The notes under the pieces: model-generated
Databases searched by the model: none
The model's input: the letters and a program-made list of their open reading frames with translations, nothing else
What the model was told of the DNA's origin: nothing
Shown: piece by piece, positions 17,460 through 36,716 of the stretch
How the letters are laid out: each line of letters starts with the position of its first letter
Numbering within the stretch: position 1 is the stretch's first letter
Made by a program: the position numbers and the translations under genes
Assembly (NCBI RefSeq): GCF_003752505.1
Contig: NZ_RKHO01000001.1
Location: 3,658,001 to 3,722,000 of the forward strand
Source of the DNA: Nocardioides aurantiacus
GTDB taxonomy: Bacteria > Actinomycetota > Actinomycetes > Propionibacteriales > Nocardioidaceae
Length of the DNA stretch: 64,000 nt
Reading direction: 5' to 3'

Positions 17460-17539
17460 TTCGTCGTTCACGGCGGGACGTCGTAGGTCCCGACCCCGGC
17501 GTACGGCGGGCCCCGCGCCTGGCGTCCGGAGATCCCGGT

Positions 17540-17559
17540 TTCCCAGGCGAACCTGGGAA
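17540..17559. repeat. Short hairpin (8-bp stem, CGAA loop) in the 17.4-17.66 kb gap
   Basis: TTCCCAGG and CCTGGGAA pair perfectly around a four-base loop. It lies between the plus-strand terminator and the palindrome that ends the siderophore operon. The remaining bases of this 274-base gap hold no coding sequence I can support; bases 17572-17588 carry an AAAACTGCCCT segment that could pair with the left arm of the 17614 palindrome. Confidence 0.4.
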
Positions 17560-17613
17560 TCGGCGGCCTTGACAGGCAAAACTGCCCTCGCGTGCCCGGA
17601 TTGCCCGGTCCGA

Positions 17614-17649
17614 CGGGCAGTTTCACCGGCTAGCCGGTGAAACTGCCCG
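17614..17649. repeat. Dispersed palindrome, copy A (36 bp, perfect)
   Basis: The left half contains GGCAGTTTCACCGGC, and the right half is its exact reverse complement with a TA centre. Two more copies with the same 15-bp half and centres TG and CA are at 35519 and 36683. This copy ends 15 bases before the stop codon of the minus-strand siderophore-interacting protein, so it can terminate that operon as well as being a member of a repeat family. Confidence 0.85.
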
Positions 17650-35518: not shown

Positions 35519-35613
35519 CGGCAGTTTCACCGGCTGGCCGGTGAAACTGCCGCGAGTGCCACGGGAGCGTCGCGCGCAGCGGCGTACGACGACGCTGGTG
35601 TGGCACTCGATCG
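35519..35613. repeat. Left inverted-repeat arm of the nuclease cassette, with palindrome copy B
   Basis: Bases 35519-35552 are a 16-bp-arm palindrome built on GGCAGTTTCACCGGC with centre TG. Bases 35553-35613 form a second nested hairpin (CGAGTGCCAC with GTGGCACTCG, inner AGCGTCG with CGACGCT). Read outward from the gene, the 62 bases before the palindrome match the right arm at about 41 positions without gaps, and the palindrome itself matches fully. The arm abuts the nuclease stop codon at 35614. Confidence 0.8.
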
Positions 35614-36564
35614 TCATGGTGGACCCGGGTCGACCGCGAGCCGCCAGGTCCTCGGGCGTCCCGAGACGCGGGCCCGCTCGACGGCGGCGTGCATCCGGGC
35701 CACGACCTTGCCGAGGTCGTGGCGGTCCCGTCCGACGACGGTGAAGCTCTCGAGCCCCACGGCTGCGAAGCGGTCGTCGCGGTCGAGGTCGTTGCTCCTC
35801 CGATCGGCGCGCCGGTGCTCGGCGCCGTCGTACTCCCCCCGCGTGGCCAGCGGCGGGCACAGCAGGTCGGCCTTGCCGACGTAGCGACCGGCGGCGTCGT
35901 GGACGGGCCAGTTGCACAGCGGAGGTGGGAGCTGGGCGTCGAGCACCCAGACCGTGCGCAGCCAGCTCTCGGCCGGGCTGAGGCTGCGGCCGTCGACCAG
36001 GAGCAGCGCGGTCCGGACCTGCCACGCGCCGCGGCCCCGGGAGCGGGCGGCGTACGACGCCAACGCCGACGGCGTGGTGACGCCCGCCGCCAGCACCATG
36101 TCGAGCTGCACGATCGCCGCGCGTAGGTCGGTGGCGCGGGCCGCCTCGTCGACGGCCGCCCGGACCGGCTCGACGCACGGCACGCCGTGGCGCCGGACGA
36201 CCTCATGGGGCGCCAGCTCCTCACGGCGCACCACCCCACCAGGCAGCTCCCGCATGCGTCGGGGTGGCGGGACGAGGAGCGGTACGGGCAGGTCCTGCGC
36301 GGCGACGTACGCCACCCCGTGGAGTCGCAGCGAGGCCCAGCCCCCGACGGCGCCCTCGGGCGGCAGGCGCTGCGCCTGCTCGAGGATGCGCTGCTCCGGC
36401 TCGCCCGGGGTGTCGGCAGGCACGTAGAGGCGTGGGCTCGTACGGCGCCACCCCGGCCCGCGGGCCTGGCCCGGCGTCGGGCCGGACACGCCGGCGGGAT
36501 CGACCGGGACGGGGAGCACCAGTCCGCGGGGTGGCCGGGCACGAGGTCGGAAGGGTCGGTCCAC
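35614..36564 (-). CDS. Stand-alone PD-(D/E)XK-type (DUF559/Vsr-like) nuclease family protein
   Basis: The 316-residue product belongs, by pattern, to a widespread actinobacterial family of single-gene proteins. An N-terminal AbiEi-like section has GWASLRLHG (about residue 77). The C-terminal domain has SPAESWLRTVWVLDAQLP, then Asp233 in KADLLCP, Glu244-x-Asp246 in GEYDG and His250, the order expected of a Vsr/DUF559 endonuclease fold, followed by DRDDRFAAVGLESFTVVGRD. No cognate methylase or antitoxin gene adjoins. The start GTG 36564 is the likeliest. Both ends are bordered by inverted repeats ending in palindromes, which suggests a mobile or once-mobile cassette. Cleavage activity is inferred from residues only. 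Confidence 0.75.
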   Translation of the reverse strand: MDRPFRPRARPPRGLVLPVPVDPAGVSGPTPGQARGPGWRRTSPRLYVPADTPGEPEQRILEQAQRLPPEGAVGGWASLRLHGVAYVAAQDLPVPLLVPPPRRMRELPGGVVRREELAPHEVVRRHGVPCVEPVRAAVDEAARATDLRAAIVQLDMVLAAGVTTPSALASYAARSRGRGAWQVRTALLLVDGRSLSPAESWLRTVWVLDAQLPPPLCNWPVHDAAGRYVGKADLLCPPLATRGEYDGAEHRRADRRSNDLDRDDRFAAVGLESFTVVGRDRHDLGKVVARMHAAVERARVSGRPRTWRLAVDPGPP

Positions 36565-36621
36565 GGCCGCACCCTCGCCGCCGCGCGCCGCGGCGTACAG
36601 GTGGGAGGCGAGGTCTGTGGA

Positions 36622-36716
36622 CGACCGAGTGCCACATCAGGGCTGTGGAGGCGAGCTGGCCGCGACGCTGGTGCGGCAGTGGGGGCAGTTTCACCGGCCA
36701 GCCGGTGAAACTGCCC
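36622..36716. repeat. Right inverted-repeat arm of the nuclease cassette, with palindrome copy C
   Basis: Bases 36683-36716 are the palindrome with centre CA, the exact reverse complement of copy B. Bases 36622-36682 are related to the left arm, best at CGA(C/T)CGAGTGCCACA(C/T)CAG and GCGACGCT. The arm ends at the base before the stop codon of the ABC permease (36717), so the palindrome also serves as its terminator. The 57 bases between the nuclease start and this arm hold no feature I can name. Confidence 0.8.

Follow-up and report, generated by a model that had tools for sequence, protein, structure and literature searches.

The window is a 64,000-nucleotide stretch of the genome of Nocardioides aurantiacus (complete, 4.06 Mb; G000 hereafter). 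It contains a gene for a putative nuclease that lies between two inverted arms, and the gene with its arms is called the cassette below. In window coordinates, its features are:

35519..35552, no strand: left outer palindrome P1, with a 16-bp stem and a 2-nt centre, 7 nt past the stop codon of an epimerase-like gene
35553..35609, plus strand: left inner hairpin P2, CGAGTGCCAC...GTGGCACTCG, from the repeat search and folding
35614..36564, minus strand: AbiEi/DUF559-like nuclease gene, 316 aa, from the open reading frame, profile matches and the family alignment
36620..36682, minus strand: right inner hairpin P2, imperfect, from the repeat search and folding
36683..36716, no strand: right outer palindrome P1, directly next to the stop codon of an ABC-2 permease-like gene

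The first-pass annotation of the window had described inverted arms bracketing the nuclease gene, and these proved real. The repeat search placed them at 35520-35615 and 36620-36715, 96 nt each, with an ungapped alignment that is 78% complementary. In each arm, a perfect palindrome, P1, lies on the outside and a hairpin, P2, on the inside. P1 is a 32-nt sequence, GGCAGTTTCACCGGC-NN-GCCGGTGAAACTGCC, located by the same search at 35520-35551 and 36684-36715, and its two copies in the cassette are identical when read on opposite strands. In agreement with the annotation, the left arm meets the stop codon of the nuclease gene (35614-35616), two bases of which it covers; the permease stop lies directly beside the right palindrome. 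The inner segment had been annotated as a partial match between the arms; it forms a clear second hairpin in the left arm, but only an imperfect one in the right arm. As an inverted repeat, the arms scored 79.7 bits, compared with a maximum of 37.4 bits both in 234 sliding window controls and in 208 further placed controls. The P1 pattern, at up to three mismatches, was found three times in the window and on average 0.00 times in 100 dinucleotide-shuffled versions.

The epimerase-like and ABC-2 permease-like genes each stop beside a P1, and the former converges with the nuclease gene on the left arm. The four neighbouring proteins that were scanned resembled an epimerase, an ABC-2 permease (below the cut-off), an ABC ATPase and an acetyltransferase. 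None of these four was an AbiEii (DUF1814) toxin or nucleotidyltransferase; the ABC ATPase also matched AAA_21, a profile whose description names AbiEii. An Rfam search of five sources matched tRNA alone.

The window protein matched Pfam AbiEi_1 below the cut-off (E = 0.0079) and the PADLOC AbiEi profile with an E value of 9.2e-8; it had no Pfam or NCBIfam match above the cut-off and no match to DUF559. The Pfam cut-off for DUF559 was passed by one of the eight relatives scanned (L111). In an alignment over 19 relatives, D233 was invariant and E199 and E244 were nearly so; these three are candidate catalytic acidic residues of a PD-(D/E)XK enzyme. A Y1/HUH transposase domain of the Transposase_17 type was absent from the window protein at Pfam E values of up to 1 and from the eight relatives at E values of up to 0.1. 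The AlphaFold model of the window protein (pLDDT of 37) was too poor for use, and a search of PDB sequences with the family profile returned two matches, with E values of 0.47 and 0.63, which were not credible. The sequence evidence suggests a protein with an AbiEi-like front and a DUF559/Vsr-like PD-(D/E)XK back, for which a nuclease role is putative.

We then asked how often relatives of this gene have such flanks. Relatives were present in all 24 genomes of the genus (107 match rows) and in 92 of the 117 genomes covered by an order-wide search. The tested set consisted of 64 members: 33 from the genus (E values of up to 1e-31), four remote paralogs from G000, and 27 order-wide loci, which remained from 30 after three that repeated earlier ones were set aside. 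Flanks of 600 bp (900 bp for the four remote paralogs) were taken from the ends of the match, which are not always the ends of the gene, and were called matched when a repeat between them reached at least 40 bits; palindromic arms may score both as inverted and as direct repeats. By this measure, 44 of the 64 members, from four families of the order, had inverted matched flanks, and 50 had inverted or direct ones. The 208 placed control windows yielded no inverted and two direct repeats, and 1 of 178 real control genes passed. Outside of the taxonomic family of the window, the passing members were one of three in f2, one of two in f3 (direct) and the single one in f4. Among the remoter members of G008 and G013, examined with 900-bp flanks, five of seven reached 40 bits. 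Thus, the recurrence of flanking repeats around the family, which the first-pass annotation had put forward as a check, was found in relatives. The observation that it had set as refuting, family members without such flanks, was also made: 14 of the 64 lacked repeated arms, and G019_C8 and G005_C4, both close homologs, are among them.

The aligned arms spanned 44 to 131 positions and mostly folded into long hairpins, which match within one cassette and differ between cassettes. Within a cassette, the stems are common to both arms and the loops are unlike. When stem pairs were followed from one arm to the other, 944 were unchanged, 19 had changed on both sides and still paired, 66 had changed on one side and still paired, and 134 were broken. 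Given the number of broken pairs, covariation within cassettes is by itself modest.

P1 is also found away from the window cassette. G000 contained 26 copies at up to three mismatches, 22 of them without a mismatch, and no copy of the reversed control. Among the 24 genus genomes, at up to two mismatches and with arms included, there were 26 copies in G000, 34 in its nearest relative, G009, one in G001 and none in the remaining 21. Both P1-rich genomes hold these cassettes. Behind P1, most copies carry a second hairpin whose loop contains another GGGCAGTTTC. About 251 kb from the window cassette, at 3,945.7 kb, two P1 copies 1,241 bp apart enclose a second gene of the family, which matches AbiEi_4 above the cut-off (E = 2.6e-8). 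This cassette and the P1-related features elsewhere in the window are:

G000:C1:3,945,711-3,946,985: second nuclease cassette (L062), which shares the P1 palindromes and encodes an AbiEi_4 domain
Window 17616..17647 (G000:C1:3675617), minus strand: solo P1, followed by a tail of the second-cassette type on the minus strand
Window 17537..17561, minus strand: small palindrome GATTCCCAGGTTCGCCTGGGAAACC beside the solo P1, found by eye, with its position counted by hand

Subtracting the four arms of the two cassettes from the 26 copies leaves 22 solo P1 in G000. Nineteen have the tail of the second cassette, one has that of the window cassette, and two are undecided; the window cassette's own arm is thus nearly private. 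A whole-arm match to it was found at one other place in G000 (G000:905850, 84%) and, besides the corresponding cassette, at three places in G009 (C1:831319, C2:390704 and C2:390644). Ownership of all 26 palindromes by the window nuclease is rejected in view of the second cassette. This corrects the first-pass annotation: most solo palindromes go with the second cassette, and the palindrome is commoner away from the window nuclease, an observation that had likewise been set as refuting.

Coding frames end within 60 nt of the copy on the P1 side in 14 of the 26 cases and on the tail side in one (an automatic count that misses some plain cases). Nearly all family-1 (P1) copies of G000, 25 of 26, align beside a G009 copy, one of them on a single side only, and in G009 there are six solo P1 and the cassette pair on C1 without a G000 counterpart among the stretches compared. 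Family 1 is thus old and not visibly hopping now. One P1-spacer-P1 pair without a gene lies at G000:1099159-1099250. At the matching place in G009 (L197, C1:1013244-1013728), there are three P1 copies approximately 227 bp apart. In three solos (G000:C1:1099159, 3955124 and 3959903), the spacer from GAAACTGCCC to the next GGGCAGTTTC is, by eye, the reverse complement of that in the others, as if inverted. The small palindrome at 17537-17561 resembles another hairpin family (GGTTTCNCAGG), which would place elements of two families side by side in the window. By eye, the P1 ends lack a GTAG head; the tetranucleotide GTAG is present within the stem of certain arms of the TAGTCC type, described below.

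TAGTCC hairpins, counted as TAGTCCGAGACG-loop-CGTCTCGGACTA in the 24 genus genomes, follow the cassette of their own genome. With arms included, there were 16 copies in G015, 14 in G009, 8 each in G000 and G007, 3 in G013, 1 in G003 and none in the other 18 genomes; the reversed control was absent from all 24. Among the flanks of the 64 cassettes examined, the TAGTCC outer stem was found in one cassette each of G000, G009, G007, G013 and G015 only, and these five are exactly the genomes with 3 to 16 copies. Removal of the arms left 7, 12, 7, 3 and 14 solos, respectively. Of these 43 solos, from which the single G003 solo was left out, 40 were closest to the inner stem of the cassette in the same genome, a number reached in 0 of 20,000 label shuffles (maximum, 23). 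The exceptions were one tie and two G007 solos nearer to the G000 cassette.

The inner stems also covary across solos. In a set of 42 (without the G003 solo and an odd-length G009 copy), positions 16, 18, 19 and 22, all free in the search pattern, were paired in 38, 41, 41 and 29 solos, against maxima of 28, 31, 29 and 27 in 500 shuffles. Positions 13 and 15 equalled the shuffle maximum, and positions 14, 17, 20, 21 and 23-28 did not exceed it. The stem of the TAGTCC cassette reads TTCGGCACC or AAAAGCACC in the G000 and G009 alleles. The loops vary from copy to copy, as would be expected of old stems under selection more than of copies made recently. Four of 21 TAGTCC hairpins tested (two orthologous pairs, L250/L257 and L252/L264) are read in frame inside genes. 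In-frame hairpins inside genes are also known from Rickettsia palindromic elements.

A second hairpin family (family 2), defined as GCGGTTTC[AC]CAGGG with up to three mismatches, was counted in the same 24 genomes with arms included. There were 15 copies in G009, 11 in G007, 6 in G008, 2 in G013, 1 in G000 and none in the other 19. A family-2 nuclease with these arms is present in G009 and G007, a remote member with matching arms in G013, and a member with similar arms in G008; G000 is without a family-2 nuclease. Sorted by eye, 10 of the 15 G009 copies have the TTTCAC form of the cassette (two are its arms) and 5 have the TTTCCC form, which is also that of the single G000 copy. By eye, the scattered units are arms of about 95-100 nt and extend beyond the stems alone.

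Comparison of relatives revealed empty sites, the presence-absence polymorphism that the first-pass annotation had proposed to look for, both for cassettes and for solos. G009 is 95% identical to G000 across 4.6 kb around the window cassette. In G001, the window cassette is absent and the two stop codons are 21 bp apart; in G007, the site is occupied by another gene (L142, G007:C1:3277936-3279009), encoding about 300 aa and proline dehydrogenase-like by eye. The G009 cassette at C1:707051 is found at the same place in G001 and is absent from G000, G007 and G003; its empty site in G000 (776,054-776,194) holds a different hairpin. The G009 cassette at C6:164663 is also in G007, and is absent from G000 and, beside the left flank, from G001. 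These patterns imply losses or repeated gains. Twelve family-2 sites of G009 (found with up to five mismatches) aligned on both sides to G000, where by eye seven are empty and five hold a diverged hairpin. Five of the 12 TAGTCC solos of G009 could be compared with G000; two sites are empty in G000 and three have a hairpin in both genomes, with inner stems that differ between the genomes as the cassettes do. At the cassette sites compared, inspection by eye revealed no target duplication, but the intergenic DNA there is too divergent for certainty.

The TAGTCC locus showed a sharp-edged divergence. Between G000 and G009, identity per 200 bp is 91-100% in the flanks and 58-72% in the cassette, and the stretch of low identity runs from just past the stop codon of one neighbour to just before that of the other. 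The proteins of the two cassettes agree at 199 of 298 positions. By comparison, the window cassette has no jump in identity (93-97%), and the second cassette has a mild one (79-93%). The TAGTCC flanks align on both sides with the cassette flanks of G007, G003 and G015; the locus is thus old, and the persistence of a cassette at one locus in several species is not typical of a free mover. The TAGTCC cassette has either been exchanged as a unit or is evolving very fast. RAYT genes evolve faster than their neighbours, according to PMC2817692.

A gene family accompanied by matching scattered hairpins suggests a transposon-like partnership of an unusual enzyme with its hairpins. The reading we prefer, at a probability of roughly 0.6, is a REP/RAYT-like family of units in actinobacteria: a cassette, consisting of a nuclease gene between two hairpin arms, together with solo hairpins elsewhere. 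The nuclease would recognise its own hairpins by their stem sequence and nick or cut there. Cutting would spread or renew arms at other sites, often just past stop codons, and the same activity would allow turnover of the cassette as a whole. In the RAYT-like reading of the first-pass annotation, the association of gene and repeats has held up strongly (matched flanks, cognate scattered hairpins and empty sites), and the action of the nuclease on its ends is the part that we infer. The covarying stems of the solos and the sharp-edged cassette divergence also speak for the preferred reading. Several findings speak against it: 14 of the 64 members are without repeated arms; 25 of the 26 family-1 copies of G000 have a G009 counterpart; the loops vary from copy to copy; stem pairs broken between the arms of a cassette (134) outnumber those changed and still paired (19 and 66); no target duplication was seen by eye; the window protein has no Pfam or NCBIfam match above the cut-off; and the TAGTCC cassette occupies one locus in several species. 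In addition, 5 of the 15 G009 copies of family 2 have the TTTCCC form unlike the TTTCAC arms of the cassette, and at 5 of 12 family-2 sites a diverged hairpin persists in G000, a genome without a family-2 nuclease. We consider evenly poised the more general proposal that, in four or more actinobacterial families, a restriction-like nuclease, rather than a tyrosine or DDE transposase, reads the stems of its own hairpins and drives their spread and their turnover in step with its own, and that cassettes at fixed loci are renewed whole.

The strongest rival, which we regard as rather unlikely, is that the hairpins are selected binding or processing sites at which an AbiEi-like regulator or nuclease acts at gene ends, with little or no mobility now; the specificity of the nuclease would drift and the hairpin sites would follow through mutation and selection. 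Such sites would account for the excess of frame ends on the P1 side (14 of 26 vs. 1 of 26 in the automatic, incomplete count), the conserved stems with free loops, and the sharing of 25 of 26 family-1 copies between sister species. AbiEi itself binds inverted repeats at its own promoter, as PMC3985639 reports. However, sister species differ by clean empty sites, the scattered units are, by eye, arms of about 95-100 nt rather than stems alone, and 4 of 21 hairpins (the two orthologous pairs) lie in frame inside genes, where a 3'-end signal makes little sense. The empty sites and in-frame copies speak against selected sites as the whole story.

A reading of the arms as ordinary terminators of transcription, which would insulate the gene and resemble each other through reuse of good terminators, is highly improbable. 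The arms are hairpin-shaped and lie just past stop codons, and the epimerase-like and nuclease genes converge on the left one, as expected for terminators. A consensus scan, however, did not detect any terminator-like site that includes a T run, a feature that terminators of actinobacteria may be without; matched flanks were found at only 1 of 178 real genes, and the match of solos to the local cassette would be left unexplained. Homing, in which the nuclease would cut solo hairpins and the cassette would be copied into the break via its arms, so that solos are the cassette's empty sites, seems improbable. The hairpin-gene-hairpin order of the cassette and the gene-less P1-spacer-P1 pair at G000:1099159-1099250 fit it. 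Of the three cassette sites that could be set against an empty site in a relative, however, none shows a solo of the same type there, one of these (G000 776,054-776,194) holding a different hairpin, and the TAGTCC cassette has stayed at a single locus in different species.

Should the nuclease prove to act on the hairpins, it would be a DNA mobiliser or gene-end modifier of a new class and would add another mode of operation to the known dispersed-palindrome systems. The stem would then be a readable, evolving code for the specificity of the nuclease, which would become predictable from sequence. The genome itself offers a test pair, an enzyme and a hairpin set whose stem changed with the enzyme. 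In open-licence PMC texts, which include no preprints, none of the matches listed joined DUF559/AbiEi-like nucleases with flanking or dispersed palindromes, and DUF559 with 'inverted repeat' returned nothing in the open-licence PMC literature.

Several known systems share parts of this organisation. IS200/IS605 elements, classical insertion sequences and MITEs also have inverted ends and gene-less copies; the cassettes differ in that no transposase domain was found in the window protein and no target duplication was seen by eye, at sites too divergent for certainty. The AbiE type IV toxin-antitoxin system is similar in the AbiEi-like profile matches and in the binding of inverted repeats by AbiEi, the latter as described in PMC3985639. 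The window cassette differs from it in the absence of an AbiEii nucleotidyltransferase from the four neighbours, in the nuclease-like C-terminal part, and in having repeats on both sides of the gene. CGTC-tagged REPs and Rickettsia palindromic elements are likewise palindromes, said in PMC3733652 to be without a dedicated transposase; that paper's text yielded no match to Actino-, Streptomyces or Mycobacteri-, and no CGTC-flanked gene was found in it. The closest likeness is to REPs and RAYTs. In PMC2817692 and PMC3116915, RAYT genes are flanked by two inverted palindromes with cognate copies scattered in the genome, gene and repeats are reported to coevolve, and orthologous RAYT genes keep their place while the flanking REPs change and stay palindromic. 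The cassettes correspond in all four respects: a gene between inverted palindromes, cognate scattered copies, co-change, and locus-bound persistence. They differ in the enzyme, which for RAYTs is an HUH/tyrosine one like that of IS200/IS605 and here is AbiEi/DUF559-like with no such Pfam match, and in that the arms are longer and double (P1 and P2). Thus, with a shared organisation but no RAYT-type Pfam match, the cassette would work like a REPtron rather than belong to that group.
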